A stretch of DNA of 64,000 nucleotides. Source: Methanolacinia petrolearia DSM 11571 (GTDB lineage Archaea > Halobacteriota > Methanomicrobia > Methanomicrobiales > Methanomicrobiaceae). Made by a program: the position numbers and the translations under genes. Numbering within the stretch: position 1 is the stretch's first letter; every line of letters starts with the position of its first letter. The stretch is taken from positions 372,001-436,000 of the forward strand of contig NC_014507.1 in the NCBI RefSeq assembly GCF_000147875.1, in the 5' to 3' direction. Under the pieces are notes generated by a model. It made no database searches. It saw nothing but the letters and a program-made list of their open reading frames with translations, and had not been told where the DNA came from. Shown in pieces: positions 21,234 to 49,327 of this stretch.

Positions 21234-21548
21234 AAACGCTGAGGAGGAACTCAATGACAAGTTATAGCGAGATTGAAAGAGGATACCTCCTCAAATGATG
21301 GGCGAACATCCCCTTTTGCTCCGGGAAGAAAATTTTTCTGGTTGCTTCAGTTTCTTATCTGTTTTCCCCCGGTCGAGGCAACCGAAGGGCTATCGCCCTT
21401 TCGATACCGAGGGTGACCTTCGGTCACCGGTTCATTTCATGAAATTAGCTTTTAGAGCTGCCCGGACGGGTAGCGTCCAGACCGGGCTATCGCGAGAGCG
21501 CAAAGCCCTGAGGTCAGGGCGTGTTCGCGAAGCGAACTTGCGCAAGTC
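21234..21548 (+). repeat. Dispersed GC-rich hairpin repeat, copy a (fills the 432-bp gap)
   Basis: Shares with 44098-44475 and, reversed, 60613-60870 the blocks CATCCCCTTTTGCTCC, CCGGACGGGTAGCGTCCAG, CCGGGYTATCGC, CCTGAGGTCAGGGCGTG and CGCGAAGCG. Several inner hairpins are visible (AAGGGCTATCGCCCTT, GGTGACCTTCGGTCACC, TTCGCGAAGCGAA). It begins with AAACGCTGAGGAGGA, which resembles the end of the tRNA-Ser gene at 23805. No gene is visible in it. Confidence 0.75.
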
Positions 21549-40997: not shown

Positions 40998-41432
40998 TTA
41001 ACGGAACATTTCAGCTTTGAGCAGGTCCGCTCCGCATTTTATCAGCTTTTCGATGGCCTCATCTATGCGATCCACCCTGAGTATAAGAACCGCGGCTTCC
41101 TTTCCGGAGTAGGCATATGAATATTCTATATTGATCTCCGATTCCCCGAGTATCCTTGCGATATCGAAGAGACCGCCGGGTTCGTCCTTCATCCTGACTG
41201 CGATTACATCGGTGAACGAGACCATAAAACCTATTTCGGCCAGTTTTTTAAGAGCCGCTTCCGGTTTATCTACAAGCAGGCGTACGACCCCGAAGCCTTT
41301 CGCCTCTGCAATGGAAAATGCGAAGATGTTAATTTTTTCATCCTGCAACGCTCTTGCTATTGCGGCAAGTCTTCCCGGCTTGTTCTCGGAGAATACCGAG
41401 ATCTGCTTTATGATATGATCATTCTTTTTCAT
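40998..41432 (-). CDS. Tandem ACT-domain protein
   Basis: 144 residues, two ACT domains: about 8-70 (ISVFSENKPGRLAAIARAL with INIFAFSIAEAKGFGVVRLLV) and about 75-140 (VIAVRMKDEPGGLFDIARIL with INIEYSYAYSG). ACT domains bind amino acids and regulate enzymes; this one lacks any catalytic part. Its start overlaps the stop of the first ligase gene by one base, so the three genes form one transcript. Such proteins are regularly found next to PaaK-type ligases in methanogens and probably sense an aromatic amino acid. Confidence 0.88.
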   Translation of the reverse strand: MKKNDHIIKQISVFSENKPGRLAAIARALQDEKINIFAFSIAEAKGFGVVRLLVDKPEAALKKLAEIGFMVSFTDVIAVRMKDEPGGLFDIARILGESEINIEYSYAYSGKEAAVLILRVDRIDEAIEKLIKCGADLLKAEMFR

Positions 41433-42730
41433 CAGTTCATCCTCCTGTCGATTACACGTTTTGCCTTTCCCTCGAATCTCGGAAGTGATCCCGGTGCGGC
41501 AAGTTCCACCCCGACGCTTACGTTGAGCGAGTTCCTCAGGACATGTGATACATTTCGGCGGATCTCGTTTATATCCTCTACCTTGTCAGAGAACGCCTCG
41601 GGATTCATCTCAACCTGGACGAGCATCTCATCGAGTGCTCCCTTCCTGTCAACTATGATCATGAAATGGCCGGAAACTTCCGGAATTCCGAGAAGTGCAT
41701 GTTCAACCTGCGACGGGAATACGTTTATTCCCCTGATGATCAGCATGTCGTCAACACGGCCCTGAAGCCTGTCGATTCTCGGGTGGGTTCTTCCACAGGC
41801 ACAGACCTCGGTGTTCATCGAGGTAATGTCTCCTACCCTGTAACGGATCATCGGGAGTGCCTCTTTCTGGAGGATGGTCATGACAAGTTCCCCCTTCTCG
41901 CCTTCAGGGAGGTTTTCGCCGGTTTCGGGGTCTATAACTTCGGTGTAGGCAATATCTCCCCAGATATGGATTCCGTTCTGCTCGGCGCAGTCGCAGAACA
42001 TCGGGCCTGACATCTCGGATGTTCCGAAGATGTTGTGGGCTGTGATGCCCATTTTGTCCTGAATATACTTCTTCATCTGCACCGACCAGGGTTCTGCACC
42101 GAGTACGGCCGTCCTGAGATCGGTGTCCTTGTCGATCGAGACACCCATCTTGTCGGCAACCTCGCCTATGTGTACCAGGTAGGATGGCGTGCTTGCGATT
42201 GCCGTGACCCTCAGGTCCTGCATAAGCTCGATCTGGCGCTCGGTGTTGCCTACGCTCGTCGGGACGACGGTGGCACCGACTCTCTCCGCACCGTAATGAA
42301 GTCCCAGTCCTCCTGTGAACAGGCCGTAGCCGTAGGAGACCTGCATGACATCCCCGCGTCCTATTCCGCATCCGGTAAGCGCTCTTGCAAGCGATGTGGT
42401 CCAGATCTCGAGATCATTCTGGGTATATCCGACGACAGTCGGTTTACCTGTTGTTCCGGAGGAGACATGGTACCTGACCAGTTCGTCCTGCGATGCAGTG
42501 AAGATCTTGTCGGGGTAGTTGTCTCTCAGGTCGCTCTTGTACATGAAGGGCAGTTTTTTGACATCATCCAGTGACCTGATATCATCGGGATGAACGTTGT
42601 GCTCCTTCATCCTTTTGTGGTAGAAATCCGAGAAGCTATAGAGCCTGTATACAAGCGTCTTCATCCGTTTGTACTGAAGTTCTGCAAGCTGTTCTACCGG
42701 CATCTCCTCAATTCGCGGGTCCCATTTCAA
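41432..42730 (-). CDS. paaK: Phenylacetate--CoA ligase family enzyme, copy 2
   Basis: 432 residues of the AMP-forming adenylate family. The ATP-binding P-loop is YHVSSGTTGKPTVVGYT (about 88-104); the A5 region YGLFTGGLG, NIFGTSEMSGP, YRVGDITSM and the C-terminal GINVFPSQVEHAL hinge are all present. It makes arylacetyl-CoA from arylacetate, ATP and CoA. In methanogens this links to indolepyruvate:ferredoxin oxidoreductase for making aromatic amino acids from imported arylacetates. It is the second gene of the operon and shows about half identity with the first. Confidence 0.92.
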   Translation of the reverse strand: MKWDPRIEEMPVEQLAELQYKRMKTLVYRLYSFSDFYHKRMKEHNVHPDDIRSLDDVKKLPFMYKSDLRDNYPDKIFTASQDELVRYHVSSGTTGKPTVVGYTQNDLEIWTTSLARALTGCGIGRGDVMQVSYGYGLFTGGLGLHYGAERVGATVVPTSVGNTERQIELMQDLRVTAIASTPSYLVHIGEVADKMGVSIDKDTDLRTAVLGAEPWSVQMKKYIQDKMGITAHNIFGTSEMSGPMFCDCAEQNGIHIWGDIAYTEVIDPETGENLPEGEKGELVMTILQKEALPMIRYRVGDITSMNTEVCACGRTHPRIDRLQGRVDDMLIIRGINVFPSQVEHALLGIPEVSGHFMIIVDRKGALDEMLVQVEMNPEAFSDKVEDINEIRRNVSHVLRNSLNVSVGVELAAPGSLPRFEGKAKRVIDRRMN

Positions 42731-44019
42731 ATTGAATCACCTCTCCTGTCAATTACGCGTTTTGCTTTTCCCTCAAATCTCGGGAGTGAATCATGTTCAA
42801 CAAGGTTTACCTTTGTTCTGAGATTAAGTGTCTCTTTTAATGCATGTATAATTTTTTTCTGAATTGTTTCAAGATCTTTTAATTCCCCGGAGAAGTATTC
42901 CTTCTTGATCTCGACATCTATTGTCATCTCGTCAAGGTGGTTTATCCTGTCGACATAGACCATGAACTGATCGCCGACCTCCGGGAGGGATCTTAGGACG
43001 TGCTCTATCTGTGAGGGGAATACGTTGATACCCCTTATTACGAGCATATCATCGCTTCTTCCGGTAAGGCGGGCGATTCTTGCTCCACGGCCGCATGGGC
43101 ATTCGTCGTCGAGAATGCAGGTGATATCTCCTGTCCTGTACCTGAGAAGAGGCATTGCCTCCTTAACAAGCGGGGTCACGACCAGTTCGCCGCGTTCGCC
43201 TGGTCCGAGCACCTCCTCAGTTTCAGGATCTATGATCTCGATAAGATAGCAGTCGTGCCAGAAGTGAAGGCCGTTTCTCTCCGGGCATTCGAATGCTGCA
43301 CCGGGCCCGTACATCTCGCTCATCCCGTAGGAGTCGTAGGCCGTGACTCCTAACTTCTGCTCCAGGGTTTTTCTCGTATTTTCCGACCACGGTTCTGCGC
43401 CGAAGAGCCCGGTCTTAAATGTCTCAAGCGTATTTCCCATGGCTTCCGCAACTTCGGCAAGGTGCATCGCATAACTCGGTGTACAGTGAACTGCCGTGAC
43501 ACCGAAATCGTCGATCATTTCGATCTGTCTTTTTGTATTTCCGGTCCCGCTTGGGATGACTGTCATTCCTATCTTCTCGGCGCCGTAGTGAAAGCCGAGT
43601 CCGCCTGTAAAAAGTCCGTAGTTAACGGCATTCTGGAATGTGTCTTCGTCGGTCAGGCCTACCATCGTCATGTTTCTTGCAATAAGCCCTGACCAGTTGT
43701 CGAGATCCTTTCTTGTATATCCGACGACAGTGGGTTTGCCGGTTGTTCCGGATGTCGTATGAATTCTTACGATCTCTTTTTTCGGGACGGCCATGAACCC
43801 GAACGGGTATCCTCCCTGCAGATCTTTTTTTGTTGTGAAGGGGAGTTTTGATACGTCGGTTATTTTATTGATATCATCCGCGGAGACATTCTTTTCCTTC
43901 AGTATGGTTTTAAAGAAGGGGACCTTTTCGGCCTGCCTGATGGTCCAGCGGAGCCTTTTGACCTGAAGATCTTCAAGGGCCTTCCCGCGAAGCGTCTCCA
44001 TCTCCTTGTTCCAGAACAT
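42727..44019 (-). CDS. paaK: Phenylacetate--CoA ligase family enzyme, copy 1
   Basis: 430 residues, same family as the downstream gene, with P-loop HTTSGTTGKPTVVGYT (about 90-105), YGLFTGGLGFHYGAEK, SYGMSEMYGPGAAFECPE and GINVFPSQIEHVL. Differences between the two copies in the substrate pocket region (about 130-240) suggest different arylacetate preference (phenyl-, 4-hydroxyphenyl- or indoleacetate). Its stop overlaps the start of the next gene by 4 bp. Neither ior gene is in the window. Confidence 0.92.
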   Translation of the reverse strand: MFWNKEMETLRGKALEDLQVKRLRWTIRQAEKVPFFKTILKEKNVSADDINKITDVSKLPFTTKKDLQGGYPFGFMAVPKKEIVRIHTTSGTTGKPTVVGYTRKDLDNWSGLIARNMTMVGLTDEDTFQNAVNYGLFTGGLGFHYGAEKIGMTVIPSGTGNTKRQIEMIDDFGVTAVHCTPSYAMHLAEVAEAMGNTLETFKTGLFGAEPWSENTRKTLEQKLGVTAYDSYGMSEMYGPGAAFECPERNGLHFWHDCYLIEIIDPETEEVLGPGERGELVVTPLVKEAMPLLRYRTGDITCILDDECPCGRGARIARLTGRSDDMLVIRGINVFPSQIEHVLRSLPEVGDQFMVYVDRINHLDEMTIDVEIKKEYFSGELKDLETIQKKIIHALKETLNLRTKVNLVEHDSLPRFEGKAKRVIDRRGDSI

Positions 44020-44097: not shown

Positions 44098-44475
44098 GGG
44101 AGGGGGAACAAGTCCCTCTCCCTCTCACCCTCCCCCTGATCGCGATAAGTCGCAAAGGGGATGGACAAGCATCCCCTTTTGCTCCAAAAGTTTTTTTGAA
44201 TCAACTTTAAAAACGCGGATCATGGATCGATTTCTATTTTATTTTTCCGGCCGAGGCTACCCGGACGGGTAGCGTCCAGGCCGGGTTATCGCAATAGCGT
44301 AGAACCCTGAGGTCAGGGCGTGTCCGCGAAGCGGACCTGCGCAAGGGTTGCCGACCGAAGAGATGCTGCCCTTTGGAAACCTGGGGCGACCTTCGTTCAC
44401 CTTTGAAAAATAATTATATTGTAGAGGAATTGTCGTCCTTTCAAAGCACAGGGTGATCCGCCGGTCACCTGTGAA
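44098..44475 (+). repeat. Dispersed GC-rich hairpin repeat, copy b (fills the 509-bp gap)
   Basis: The longest copy of the family. It begins with short G-rich and C-rich inverted blocks (AGGGAGGGGG and CCCTCCCCCT), then GGGGATGGACAAGCATCCCC, CCGGCCGAGGCTACCCGG, GGGTAGCGTCCAGGCCGGG, CTGAGGTCAGGGCG and GTCCGCGAAGCGGAC. Each is a near-perfect hairpin or half of one. It lies between the convergent ends or starts of operons and contains no gene. Homology with copy c is nearly base for base over about 150 bp. Confidence 0.8.
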
Positions 44476-44528: not shown

Positions 44529-45197
44529 TCAGTGTCCCTGGGTTCCCGGAACAGCGAACTTCTTCTCCAGCATTCCCGCCCCTACTGTAGTTATGGTTAC
44601 AAGTATGAGGTATATTGCGCCGACGAAGATGAAAGTCTCGGTATATGTAAAATATTTGGTTGCGATCAGTTTTCCTGCTCCTGTCAGTTCAACCAGTGTC
44701 AGCATGAACGCAAGAGAGGAGTACTTGATCAGGTAGATAAACTCGTTTGAAAGCCCCGGGATAGCTCTTCTAAGTGCCTGGGGAAGCACAATATAGAATA
44801 TCGACTGGTACTTCGTCATCCCGAGTGAGCGTGCCGCGATTATCTGTCCTTCCTTGACTGATTTGATTGCCCCCCTGATATATTCAGAATTATAGGCAGC
44901 ATTGCACATGATGAAGCCTATAACCGAGGCTTCGAATGCGGTGAAAGTAATTCCTATAGAGGGAAGGGTGAAATAGAGGATGAATAGGAGAAGAAGAAGC
45001 GGACAACCCTTGACAAACATCGCAAATGCTTTGCACAGAAATGATGTGCATCTCCCGCCGTATGTCCTGCCGATTGCGACACCAATCCCTGCAAGGAGGC
45101 CGAAAGGAGCAGAGACTACTATTAGCTGGACAGTGACAACAAGCCCTGTCAGAAGTGCCGGAAGCAGTATCTCTGTGATAAATGTCAGGTTCTCCAT
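44529..45197 (-). CDS. Polar amino acid ABC transporter permease, subunit 2
   Basis: 222 residues, five membrane helices. The EAA loop that meets the ATPase reads [28 protein letters not shown] (about 140-170), typical of HisM/GlnP-type permeases. It forms a heterodimer with the permease at 45951-46661. It is last in the four-gene operon (binding protein, permease, ATPase, permease), 7 bp after the ATPase gene. The first helix and the TVQLIVVSAPFGLLAGIG motif fit the family. Confidence 0.92.
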   Translation of the reverse strand: MENLTFITEILLPALLTGLVVTVQLIVVSAPFGLLAGIGVAIGRTYGGRCTSFLCKAFAMFVKGCPLLLLLFILYFTLPSIGITFTAFEASVIGFIMCNAAYNSEYIRGAIKSVKEGQIIAARSLGMTKYQSIFYIVLPQALRRAIPGLSNEFIYLIKYSSLAFMLTLVELTGAGKLIATKYFTYTETFIFVGAIYLILVTITTVGAGMLEKKFAVPGTQGH

Positions 45198-45204
45198 GAT
45201 TATT

Positions 45205-45954
45205 TCAGTCCGCTTTCATTCCTAAACCGCCGATGAACTGTTTTGTCCTTGAGGTATCTTCACCTTCAAGGAGTTCTCCCGGACTTCCTTCTTCGACGAT
45301 ATTACCATTCTCCATGAATATTATTCTGTTTGCGACGTTGCAGGCAAAGCCCATCTCATGGGTGACAACAAGCATTGTCATTCCTTCCTGCGCAAGTTTC
45401 TTCATGACTTCAAGAACTTCACGTGTGAGTTCGGGGTCAAGGGCGGAGGTCGGCTCATCAAACAGAATGACGTCAGGATCCATTGCAAGCGCACGTGCGA
45501 TCGAGACTCTCTGTGCCTGTCCGCCAGAAAGTTCGGCCGGGTAATGATCCGCCCAGTCCTCCATCCCTACCTGCCGGAGTTCATAAAGAGCCTTCTCTCT
45601 GGCCACTTCAGGTTTCATTCCCTTAACTTTTATCAGTGCGATCTCAACATTCCTGACTGCTGTCAGGTGGTCGAAGAGACAGAAGTTTTGGAAGACCATT
45701 CCGATCTTCTGCCTGAAGTAGTTGATCTTAGATCCTGAGTTTGTGACTTCCTCGTCTCTCAGAAAAACCTGCCCTTTTTCAGGAACTGTAAGCTGGTTAA
45801 TACAGCGTAAAAGCGTACTTTTTCCCGTACCTGAAGGTCCGATAAATACAAGTGTTTCTCCTTTTTTGACATTGAATGAAACACCCTTCAGGACCTCAGA
45901 GTTCCCGTATTTCTTGTGGATATCTTCTACTCTCAGAATATATTCTTCACTCAT
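45205..45954 (-). CDS. glnQ: Polar amino acid ABC transporter ATPase (GlnQ-like)
   Basis: 249 residues, complete ABC ATPase: Walker [10 protein letters not shown] (about 39-47), Q-loop [11 protein letters not shown], signature [15 protein letters not shown], Walker [17 protein letters not shown] and H-loop VVTHEMGFA. It powers import of a polar amino acid (Gln, His, Arg or Cys group); the substrate cannot be told from this subunit. The start overlaps the permease gene upstream by 4 bp. Confidence 0.95.
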
Positions 45955-46661
45955 AGGAACACCTGCTTTTCATCTCCGCTTCCGGAAAATCCTGGTATTG
46001 CAATCCTGTTCTCAAGAATAAGAAGTCCCTTTGTCCCTGCATAATTAAGGATGATGAAGAGAACTGCACATACCAGATAAATTGTGTATTCATATGTCTG
46101 TGATGCGATCTGCGAACTTCTTGTCAGCAGTTCTGCAACTCCTATCGCATAACATACCGCGGAATCGGTAAGTATGTTGGGGTATTCGTTCGACCACCCT
46201 GGAAGAGCGATCCTGAAAGACTGCGGCAGGATCACATTTTTTATTGCGGAGAGTTTTGTCATCCCCAGTGATCTTGCGGCTGTCATCTGCCCTTCGCTTA
46301 TTGACTGGATGGCGCCCCTGAATATCTGTGACTGGTAGGCTGCACCTCTCAGGCCTAAAACGATAGCGCCAACGAAGAACGGGGCGAGATCCCCCATTCC
46401 CATAAGAGGAAAGATTCCAAAGTAGAACAGGAATAACAGAACAAGGATCGGAAGTCCCCTGAAGAACCAGACAAAGACGGCGATAAAAGCCTTCATAATT
46501 TTATCAACCCATCTGATCCCTGTGCTGTAGACCTGACCAATTGCCATAGGAAGGCCGATGATCACGCCTAAACCCAAACCTGCTGCAGTAAGCCCTAAGG
46601 TCACAAAAATGCCGGTAAGTAGGTAAGGGGCCCAGTCGATAAGAATTGATATTAGATCCAT
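45951..46661 (-). CDS. Polar amino acid ABC transporter permease, subunit 1
   Basis: 236 residues from ATG 46661 (AAGGGA before it; an in-frame TTG further upstream, at 46682, is less likely). Five membrane helices and the EAA loop [28 protein letters not shown]. It pairs with the permease at 44529-45197. Position in the operon: second, after the binding protein, overlapping the ATPase gene by 4 bp. Confidence 0.92.
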
Positions 46662-46810
46662 GCAGTATTCCCTTGACAGCAAACCGGCTATGCAGTCTGG
46701 CAGTATTACTCTGCCTGCATTTTTAGACTTAATCTATATTTATTCTGCCGATTTTTAAAAGATAGCCGAATAATTATCAGATGTTGAAAATAGGTTGAAT
46801 TTTTGGTAAA

Positions 46811-47620
46811 TTATTCTACCATGCCATACTCTGTCTTGAGTTCTTCCCAGTATGGATCTGCCATGAGCTGGGTGAGGCCGTCGTTGATAGTCTCAAGAAG
46901 TTCTACATCGGACTTCCTGATTGCAACACCGTATTCCTCGTTTGTATCAATCTCCCCTATGATTGAGAGGGGCTTTCCTTCGATTGCCTCAAGCATCGGC
47001 GGCTTGTCGTATATTGCAAAGTCTATCCTCTGGTTCTTTAGATCCTCTGATACCAGTGGGAAGGTAGAATAGGTGTTCTTGAAATTTTCAGCGGGCATGA
47101 TACCTGTATCAATAAGGTTCTCTTCGACCCACTGTGCTCCGGAAGTTCCGCTCTGTGCACCGATGATGTACTTTCCGCTCATAAAGTCGTCCATAGTGTA
47201 GTTGTTTACATCATTGATTGCAACGGACTGGTTGACCTTCCAGTAGGGGATCGAGAAGTTGACCTGTTCAAGCCTCTTGTCTGTAATAGTCATTCCCGAG
47301 TAGACCATATCGATCTTTCCTGCCATAAGGGCAGGAATAATTCCATCCCATGCGACGGGTATAATCTCGACTTCGAATCCTTCCTTTTCAGCGATCCATT
47401 TTATTGAATCTACATCAAAGCCTACAGGATTCCCATCCGTGTCGACATAGCTGTAAGGCTTGTATTCACCGTCTATCCCGACGATATATGTCGTCGTCTC
47501 CTCCACGTTCACCCCGTCCGTGGATGTCTGGTTCTCACCGGATGTATCGGTACATCCTGAAAAAACCATAGCCAGTGCAAGAATCAGCACCAGAATTGCA
47601 CCATAAACCTTCACGGTCAT
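46811..47620 (-). CDS. Amino acid ABC transporter substrate-binding lipoprotein
   Basis: 269 residues from ATG 47620; a TATA-like ATTATATTTC about 25 bp before it suggests a leaderless mRNA. The lipobox AMVFSGCTDT (Cys about 23) anchors it outside the membrane. The type II periplasmic-binding fold is clear: VGIDGEYKPYSYVDTDGNPVG, then GFDVD, WDGIIPALMAGKIDMVYSGM, and YGVAIRKSD near the end. A conserved Arg and Asp pair of such proteins binds the amino group and carboxylate of the ligand. First gene of the operon. Confidence 0.93.
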   Translation of the reverse strand: MTVKVYGAILVLILALAMVFSGCTDTSGENQTSTDGVNVEETTTYIVGIDGEYKPYSYVDTDGNPVGFDVDSIKWIAEKEGFEVEIIPVAWDGIIPALMAGKIDMVYSGMTITDKRLEQVNFSIPYWKVNQSVAINDVNNYTMDDFMSGKYIIGAQSGTSGAQWVEENLIDTGIMPAENFKNTYSTFPLVSEDLKNQRIDFAIYDKPPMLEAIEGKPLSIIGEIDTNEEYGVAIRKSDVELLETINDGLTQLMADPYWEELKTEYGMVE

Positions 47621-47862
47621 GAAGGAAACTATCGCCAAAAAGAAATATAATCATTTTGACTTGATTTTTTGCAAAAAAATCCGTTAAATCAGTCGATGTA
47701 GGTTAAAATATTCCATTTAACCTTATTATTCCTGATATTCTGTCGGAGATGATCGACGCATGCATAGTGTTACAAATGGAAAGAGAAGTTTGCGATGTTC
47801 AAACGATGGCTTAATGTATTTTTTTACCGATTTATTTATTAAGTTTTCAGGAGTTTTTTGCG

Positions 47863-48798
47863 ATGTTCAGTCCAGATATTCCATGGCATGTAGTGTGGGG
47901 TTTCGGGGGCCATATCAAGTCCACGGCAACAACACTCATTATCCTGAATAAATCTGATGTCGAAGAGATTCCTATAAAATCCGTCGATCACCTGCTTGTT
48001 GTGGGAGGCCATAATATCCATACTTCCGCAATAATTCATCTTTTAAGGCAGAATTCATCGGTTTCGTTCTTCGATGCCGACGGTACACCCGTAGGAGTTC
48101 TAAGGCCCTTCGGGAGAAAACCCGATGAGGAGATGGCAGAACTCCAGTCAGAAGTTTCTTCCTATAACAGCGCCGCTGAAATTGTACGGTCGTCAATAAA
48201 GGCGAGGATTATGATGATCGAAAAAGCTGGTGGTGAAATAGACCGGGAACTCTATTACAAGGGAGAGGACGAGATCCTTTTCACGAGCCTGGAGGAGATC
48301 GACTATCTCATAAAGATGGAAGAGCTTAGAAGAATCCAGAAATTTACTTCTGACATGTATTATGAGATTATGGGGAGATGTCTTACTCCGTCTCACGGGT
48401 TTAAAAGAAGAACATCCCGCCCGCACGTGGACCCTGTAAACTCTCTGCTTTCGCTTGGCTATTCGATCCTTTTCGGGAACTGTTGTGTGCCGCTTGTAGG
48501 TGCGTACCTTGATGTCGACAAGGGAATTCTTCGCGAGGGGACAAATTCTCTTATTCTTGATCTTATAGATCCTTTGAAGCCTTTCATGGTGGATTCTGTT
48601 GTATTTTCAATTGCACGCGAATACCTTACGGATGATATGTACGAAACAAATACGAAGAGGTGCCATCTTGATCAGGGAACTCTGCGTTTGTTATCCAATG
48701 CTCTTAAAAGTTCAATTGATCAGAGGAAGATCGAGGAGAACGTAATGTCCTACCGCGATTCGCTTATAAACAGAAGACCGCTGAGGTTTTCTTACTGA
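47863..48798 (+). CDS. Solo Cas1-like protein with substituted catalytic residues
   Basis: 311 residues; CAGGAG lies about 13 bp before ATG 47863. Cas1 landmarks are clear: an N-terminal beta domain with VDHLLVVGGHNIHTSAIIHL, and the helical domain with FKRRTSRPHVDPVNSLLSLGYSILFG (about 180-205) and LILDLIDPLKPFMVD. Cas1 integrases use Glu, His and Asp. By eye the Glu site (usually IEG) is Gln159 in RIQKF, and the His site (usually FLH) is Arg224 in GILREG; Asp233 and Asp236 remain. No cas2, other cas gene or CRISPR array is near. It probably does not integrate DNA; role unknown. Confidence 0.85.
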   Translation: MFSPDIPWHVVWGFGGHIKSTATTLIILNKSDVEEIPIKSVDHLLVVGGHNIHTSAIIHLLRQNSSVSFFDADGTPVGVLRPFGRKPDEEMAELQSEVSSYNSAAEIVRSSIKARIMMIEKAGGEIDRELYYKGEDEILFTSLEEIDYLIKMEELRRIQKFTSDMYYEIMGRCLTPSHGFKRRTSRPHVDPVNSLLSLGYSILFGNCCVPLVGAYLDVDKGILREGTNSLILDLIDPLKPFMVDSVVFSIAREYLTDDMYETNTKRCHLDQGTLRLLSNALKSSIDQRKIEENVMSYRDSLINRRPLRFSY

Positions 48799-48867: not shown

Positions 48868-48925
48868 AAAGGCTGGCGATCGAAAGTCCCCTTAGGTTTC
48901 GAAAGGGCGACAGCCCTTAGGCTCA
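48868..48925 (+). repeat. Short GC-rich hairpin, possible relic of the dispersed repeat
   Basis: Contains CGAAAGGGCGACAGCCCTTAGG, whose core GGGCGACAGCCC folds on itself and resembles AAGGGCTATCGCCCTT in copy a. Only this small part is shared. Confidence 0.35.
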
Positions 48926-48997: not shown

Positions 48998-49327
48998 TCA
49001 GTAAACCCTGACGATCTCGAAATCTTCGTAATCCATTGGCTCTTTTTCATAGATGTCAATGTCTCTTATATGTGCTCTCGGGCATTCCTGAAGGGACGAG
49101 AGGAATTTGTCAATAATTATATCGTCTCCGCTCGCCCTGATACAGACCCTGCCGTCTTCAAGATTCATGACTTCACCGGTTATCGAAAGCTGCGAAGCTA
49201 TCCTCCTGACGCATGCCCGGAATCCTACGCCCTGAACTTTGCCGGTAACATATGCCTCTATTGTTTTTAATCTTGGGGTCTGCTCTTCAGTTATCCCGGA
49301 AGCATCTGTATCCTGAGCCATAGCCAT
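48998..49327 (-). CDS. Acylphosphatase
   Basis: 109 residues. Acylphosphatases hydrolyse carboxyl-phosphate bonds such as acetyl phosphate. The signature VTGKVQGVGFRACV carries the phosphate-binding Arg, and VMNLEDGRVCI carries the catalytic Asn; both are intact. The first 20 residues are an extra tail before the fold, and a later start (about residue 20) would give the usual length of 90. It is isolated, facing the Cas1-like gene. Confidence 0.9.
   Translation of the reverse strand: MAMAQDTDASGITEEQTPRLKTIEAYVTGKVQGVGFRACVRRIASQLSITGEVMNLEDGRVCIRASGDDIIIDKFLSSLQECPRAHIRDIDIYEKEPMDYEDFEIVRVY

Follow-up and report, generated by a model that had tools for sequence, protein, structure and literature searches.

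A solo Cas1 of Methanolacinia petrolearia lacking the catalytic Glu and His: a constrained core gene of the Methanomicrobiales with a possible CRISPR-independent role

If a Cas1 has lost the glutamate and the histidine of the metal site that cuts and joins DNA, and no CRISPR array stands beside it, what is it for? The question is raised by a single gene of Methanolacinia petrolearia, whose genome is one contig of 2,843,290 bp; it lies in the 64-kb stretch (bases 372001–436000) that was analysed here and is called the window. An initial annotation of the window had proposed a domesticated solo Cas1 without the catalytic Glu and His. That proposal is supported: the protein has Q159 and R224 at the two positions, no CRISPR–Cas locus was found in its genome and it belongs with a known solo family. 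The features discussed are collected in table 1.

Table 1. Features of the solo cas1 locus, in window coordinates.
Feature	Coordinates	Strand	Basis or remark
Solo Cas1-family gene	47863..48798	+	ATG to stop, 311 aa; ORF, Pfam/NCBIfam, orthologues, structure
Codon 157, Arg replacing Gly two residues before the catalytic Glu	48331..48333	+	alignment
Codon 159, Gln in place of the catalytic Glu	48337..48339	+	E in 33/33 CRISPR Cas1
Codon 224, Arg in place of the catalytic His; a shorter loop follows	48532..48534	+	H in 33/33 CRISPR Cas1
Codons 233–236, Asp233 and Asp236, the two remaining acidic positions	48559..48570	+	alignment
Acylphosphatase gene, convergent neighbour	48998..49327	-	PF00708, E 1.5e-21
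Solute-binding protein of an amino-acid-type ABC transporter, divergent upstream neighbour	46811..47638	-	Pfam
Amino-acid-type ABC transporter genes, upstream	44529-47638		Pfam
Two phenylacetate-CoA-ligase-like AMP-binding genes	41432..44019	-	Pfam, synteny

A Cas1 fold and its genomic setting

The window protein is a real Cas1 homologue, well beyond chance, and its whole fold is intact at high confidence. It scores 172 bits against Pfam PF01867 (E = 1.6e-50) and 112 bits against NCBIfam TIGR00287, and in sequence searches solved Cas1 proteins match it from 1.7e-9. An AlphaFold model built from 61 orthologues is confident (pLDDT 92.6, pTM 0.91); it matches A. fulgidus Cas1 (4n06) with a Foldseek value of 2.7e-18, and solved Cas1 chains over about 300 residues with a top Z of 32.9 (7mi4_A). 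The observation made in the initial annotation is confirmed. Opposite the Glu and His of 4n06 the alignment has Q159 and R224, and neither alignment nor fold restores either residue at the site; their return there had been named as grounds for withdrawing the proposal. The two remaining aspartates are D233 and D236, as had been read. With CRISPR-associated Cas1 the protein shares, besides the fold, conserved R183, N193, D190, D233, D244 and Q95; it differs in that the Glu-His-Asp-Asp/Glu site, cas2 and an array are all missing.

Does the genome hold a CRISPR–Cas system that this Cas1 could serve? A genome-wide family search returned the solo gene as the sole Cas1. Family searches for Cas2, Cas3 HD, Cas10 palm2 and DevR/Cas7 found none in the whole genome, and each of these searches gave matches in control genomes. 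The window scan found no CRISPR-like array within the 64 kb; genome-wide, where cas genes were searched by family, the absence of arrays is taken from the genome paper of Methanoplanus petrolearius SEBR 4847T (now Methanolacinia petrolearia), which gives 0 CRISPR repeats (PMC3035365). Pfam was run on the ORFs of 120 aa or more between about 34 and 64 kb (every one within 42.7–54.2 kb and all but four outside it) and identified neither cas genes nor PolB among them. The earlier statement that no array, cas2 or casposon polymerase lies nearby therefore holds for the array scan of the window and for these ORFs, and a CRISPR-cas locus lacking its own cas1, which would have told against domestication, was not found in the genome.

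In many relatives a CRISPR Cas1 is also present, and the solo protein might act in trans with it as an adaptation or modulator subunit. We regard this as very improbable: the window genome has no Cas2, Cas3, Cas10, DevR or CRISPR repeats to work with, and in 8 of the 28 genomes of its taxonomic family the solo gene is the only Cas1 match. Weak second Cas1 matches in relatives (E about 1e-9) were considered as a partner family; the one tested (L139) is an ordinary type I-E Cas1.

Could the gene instead be what is left of a casposon integrase? Casposases (Cas1-solo group 2) likewise combine a Cas1 fold with no CRISPR link, and casposase 6opm matches the model with a Z of 30.8. In casposases, however, the catalytic tetrad is complete and the genes are found in mobile islands that also carry PolB and inverted repeats, whereas the window protein has Q159 and R224 in place of Glu and His. 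No PolB occurs among the scanned neighbouring proteins, no long flanking inverted repeat was found in 1.45 kb around the gene, the sole stretch scanned, and the chromosomal place of the gene is conserved across the order. A casposon remnant is the least credible of the readings considered here.

That place can be described in some detail. With a divergent gene upstream and a convergent gene downstream, solo cas1 is its own transcription unit. The acylphosphatase is its most conserved neighbour in the order, convergent and in the same relative place in 46 of 61 compared loci, where no cas genes were found, and the divergent solute-binding gene recurs beside solo cas1 in related Methanomicrobiaceae. 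The CoA-ligase-like genes are part of a conserved block and in many other genera stand directly upstream; in the conserved locus the upstream side carries CoA ligases and an ACT protein, and in many genera the downstream side carries a large repeat protein, GlmM, MobB and DUF5806. Metabolic genes surround it in the window: those for CoA ligases, the ABC transporter, acylphosphatase, a LeuA-type synthase and acetolactate synthase, together with ilvC and ilvD. The conserved neighbours (acylphosphatase, CoA ligases, GlmM) are mostly on the opposite strand and give no clear hint of function.

A palindrome-rich interspersed repeat of 47 bp occurs in the window at 48875-48921, 21382-21428 and 44355-44401, the first copy lying between solo cas1 and the acylphosphatase gene; the genome has about 24 copies at roughly 80–96% identity. 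As an element belonging to solo cas1 it was rejected, being a genome-wide repeat that is not kept beside the gene elsewhere. The intergenic stretch folds no better than its shuffles (z -0.58).

Distribution and selection in the order

Is the gene kept, or is it decaying? The initial annotation had left open whether this is one of the known solo families. The family that it fits is Cas1-solo group 1 (Makarova 2013; Krupovic 2014, PMC4046053), which was described as confined to Methanomicrobiales, with no sign of horizontal transfer, not linked to CRISPR and with no member that has the full catalytic tetrad (PMC4046053). The window protein has the family and fold of Cas1, a separate clade, restriction to the order, an incomplete tetrad and no linked CRISPR, and nothing was seen that would exclude membership. 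As a type, then, the gene is not new, its family being already known. Later work calls the group probably vestigial (PMC9755687), and we found no published work on its function. The analysis adds that nearly every member of the order carries the gene as a core gene under purifying selection, that its active site has been remodelled, and that one lineage has the full tetrad.

Of 232 genomes of the order, 218 carry a solo Cas1 orthologue, as do 133 of the 135 near-complete ones; 38 of 40 genera are represented. The genomes of the order lacking one, and one genome with only a fragment, were searched again and yielded none; only two negative genomes reach 90% completeness, and both assemblies are broken into tens to hundreds of contigs. 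Across 392 genomes sampled from the phylum, matches inside Methanomicrobiales score 254–554 bits, with the best outside at 101 bits. A scan of named genomes gave 136 solo Cas1 loci, and the 80 listed are all from Methanomicrobiales or unresolved Euryarchaeota. There were none among 2.9 million viral contigs.

Three side observations may be recorded. Outside the order, two adjoining Cas1-family ORFs occur in genome G397 (L124, 1444-2382 and 2375-3193), the second short and with a weak match resembling the DnaA N-domain. Genome G129 has a divergent solo Cas1 (L093, 7617-8279) whose called ORF is only 220 aa; its frame lacks a common start codon near the expected N-terminus, by reason of either an odd start codon or a damaged gene. 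Matches in the order to PF01870, the model of the Holliday junction resolvase Hjc, are weak and scattered (16 of 41 genomes, about 25 bits); they were sought to see whether solo Cas1 stands in for an absent resolvase, and the pattern speaks neither for nor against it.

In a quick maximum-likelihood tree of 94 solo proteins and 33 CRISPR-type Cas1 of the phylum, the solo proteins form one side of a branch (SH-aLRT 100) with a stem of 1.04, the position of which is provisional, the tree covering solo and CRISPR-type proteins only and carrying a long-branch warning. Within the solo side the tree largely follows taxonomy, by families of the order. Among close pairs (dS below 0.8) dN/dS is 0.02–0.30, and it is 0.05 between the window gene and its congener (L036). 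The listed open frames have no internal stop codons.

From the distribution, the tree, the dN/dS values and the conserved locus we conclude that solo cas1 is a constrained, vertically inherited, chromosomal core gene of Methanomicrobiales. Loss of catalytic residues and the lack of a reported function are what speak for a vestigial, decaying gene, as the literature suggests (PMC9755687). But near-universal carriage, dN/dS well under 1, invariant residues peculiar to the family and intact frames already contradict decay, and decay seems to us hardly believable. The core distribution, the single clade largely following taxonomy, the often conserved locus and the dN/dS range argue that the gene is not vestigial; near-universal carriage under such strong selection argues that it has a real job. 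In its restriction to the order, vertical descent, lack of CRISPR linkage and incomplete tetrad the family agrees with the published account of group 1, and it is the vestigial label that the present data contradict.

The catalytic positions and the remodelled pocket

If the gene is under constraint, which residues does the constraint hold? Hardly the catalytic pair. Among the 94 solo proteins, position 159 is His in 60, Ser in 8, Phe in 8, Gln in 7, Glu in 6, Tyr in 3, and Asn and Ala in one each. Position 224 is His in 43, Arg in 20, Asn in 8, Tyr in 8, Ser in 7, Lys in 3 and something else in the others. Asp233 is invariant (94/94), and position 236 is Asp in 45, Glu in 43, Ala in 3, Asn in 2 and Gly in one. 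The 33 CRISPR Cas1 of the phylum read E-H-D-E in 30 cases and E-H-D-D in 3; the early reading of Gln159 and Arg224 as standing at catalytic positions is confirmed by the Glu and His present there in all 33. On the tree at least 16 changes are needed at position 159, 22 at 224 and 13 at 236, against a median of 20 per column; none is needed at W8, H50, E135, R157, E168, R172, D233, D244 and R266. As the sequences read, selective constraint has departed from the catalytic Glu/His pair and shifted to other residues.

Might the protein still be an enzyme, with an altered metal site? His is the commonest residue at both 159 and 224, as would suit an enzyme with His for Glu (H-H-D-D/E), for instance a structure-specific nuclease that needs another metal or substrate, and 30 of the 94 proteins have D, E or H at all four catalytic positions. 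One of these is E-H-D-E: the syntenic orthologue L091 (7969-8895 of its locus, in genome G125 of genus g24), whose genus-mates read E-N-D-E or E-K-D-E while another genus reads E-N-D-N. Despite its full tetrad it carries the family Arg at 157 and 160. It is an exception to the published statement that no group 1 member has the full tetrad. These 30 proteins and the tetrad of L091 count against a wholly non-catalytic reading and leave room for residual metal chemistry in some lineages. On the other hand, at least 16 and at least 22 changes at 159 and 224 are not what a metal site could tolerate; in many lineages position 159 is Phe, Tyr, Ala or Ser and position 224 is Arg, Lys, Asn, Ser or Tyr while the remainder of the protein is no less conserved, and the window protein itself is Q/R/D/D. 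We consider an altered metal enzyme improbable for the family. For the window protein, to which only two Asp are left, metal-dependent integration would be very unlikely.

What, then, surrounds the vacated site? Position 157 is Arg in 94/94 solo proteins, against Gly in 31/33 CRISPR Cas1. The residue after the Glu position (160) is Arg or Lys in 76/94, against Gly or Ala in 33/33. The His position and the first Asp are 12 residues apart in 33/33 CRISPR Cas1 and 9 apart in 88/94 solo proteins (16 in the other 6), which shortens the active-site loop of those 88, the window protein included, by three residues. R172, R181, R182 and R266 are further basic positions new in the solo family. Together these residues (R157, K/R160, R172, R181–R183, R266) make an Arg cluster on or near the helix of the catalytic Glu. 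As a whole the solo protein is acidic, with a median net charge of about -5, close to the -6 of the neighbouring proteins, whereas CRISPR Cas1 of the same order lie between +1 and +14. It thus departs from CRISPR-associated Cas1 in its replaced Glu/His, its Gly-to-Arg flanks, its shorter loop and its acidity.

Possible roles of the solo Cas1

How might a Cas1 work with such a pocket? We lean, somewhat beyond even, towards a domesticated, non-integrating Cas1 whose remodelled basic pocket serves a CRISPR-independent, DNA-holding role in chromosome maintenance. As the distribution, tree and selection show, the ancestor of Methanomicrobiales took on a Cas1 a single time for a cellular job independent of CRISPR, and the gene was then passed on vertically as a core gene. 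The sequences show that the Glu/His/Asp/Asp metal site has been freed from constraint and that the pocket was rebuilt along the family stem: Arg and Arg/Lys took the place of the glycines on either side of the Glu, three residues dropped out of the His–Asp loop, and Arg172, Arg182 and Arg266, with Glu135 and Glu168, became fixed. The protein would probably work without catalysis, its fold holding, as active Cas1 does, branched or end-containing DNA, here through the basic pocket, and so act as an architectural or recruiting factor.

The main rival is an adaptor or regulator that works by protein–protein contacts, with the Cas1 fold and dimer surface as a scaffold and DNA binding lost. In its favour, the solo proteins no longer have the net positive charge seen in CRISPR Cas1, many invariant residues (W8, H50, E135, E168) are not known catalytic or DNA-contact positions, and the catalytic positions vary, D233 excepted. 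The charge of about -5, where the CRISPR Cas1 of the order are always positive, counts against DNA holding. But the Arg cluster beside the catalytic-Glu helix is what would be expected of a phosphate- or DNA-binding pocket, and a scaffold of this kind strikes us as unlikely, if more credible than an altered enzyme. A local basic pocket in a protein that has lost its overall positive charge fits better with specific phosphate or DNA contact than with a wide coating of DNA. DNA binding by solo Cas1, which the initial annotation had put forward as a possibility, is plausible and compatible with the new conserved basic residues around the former active site, and we prefer the non-catalytic, DNA-holding role to the scaffold.

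A chromosome-maintenance role for a Cas1 has been proposed before. For E. coli Cas1 (YgbT) a role in DNA repair or chromosome maintenance was put forward (Babu 2011, as cited in PMC4046053). The window Cas1 resembles it in the role proposed, and differs in that YgbT is catalytically active and lies within a CRISPR locus.

Going further, on the family stem a metal-dependent integrase may have been converted to a metal-free basic pocket, through Gly-to-Arg changes at both sides of the catalytic Glu and a shortened active-site loop, giving the whole order a core chromosome-maintenance protein that works without cutting; we offer this more specific account tentatively, and would not yet bet on it. 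The lineage with the full tetrad (L091) offers a natural comparison. The family has been on record since 2013–14 and was set aside as inactive. Its near-universal presence, CRISPR-less strains included, together with purifying selection and invariant residues of its own, suggests that it is likely a Cas1 captured by its host for a job outside immunity.
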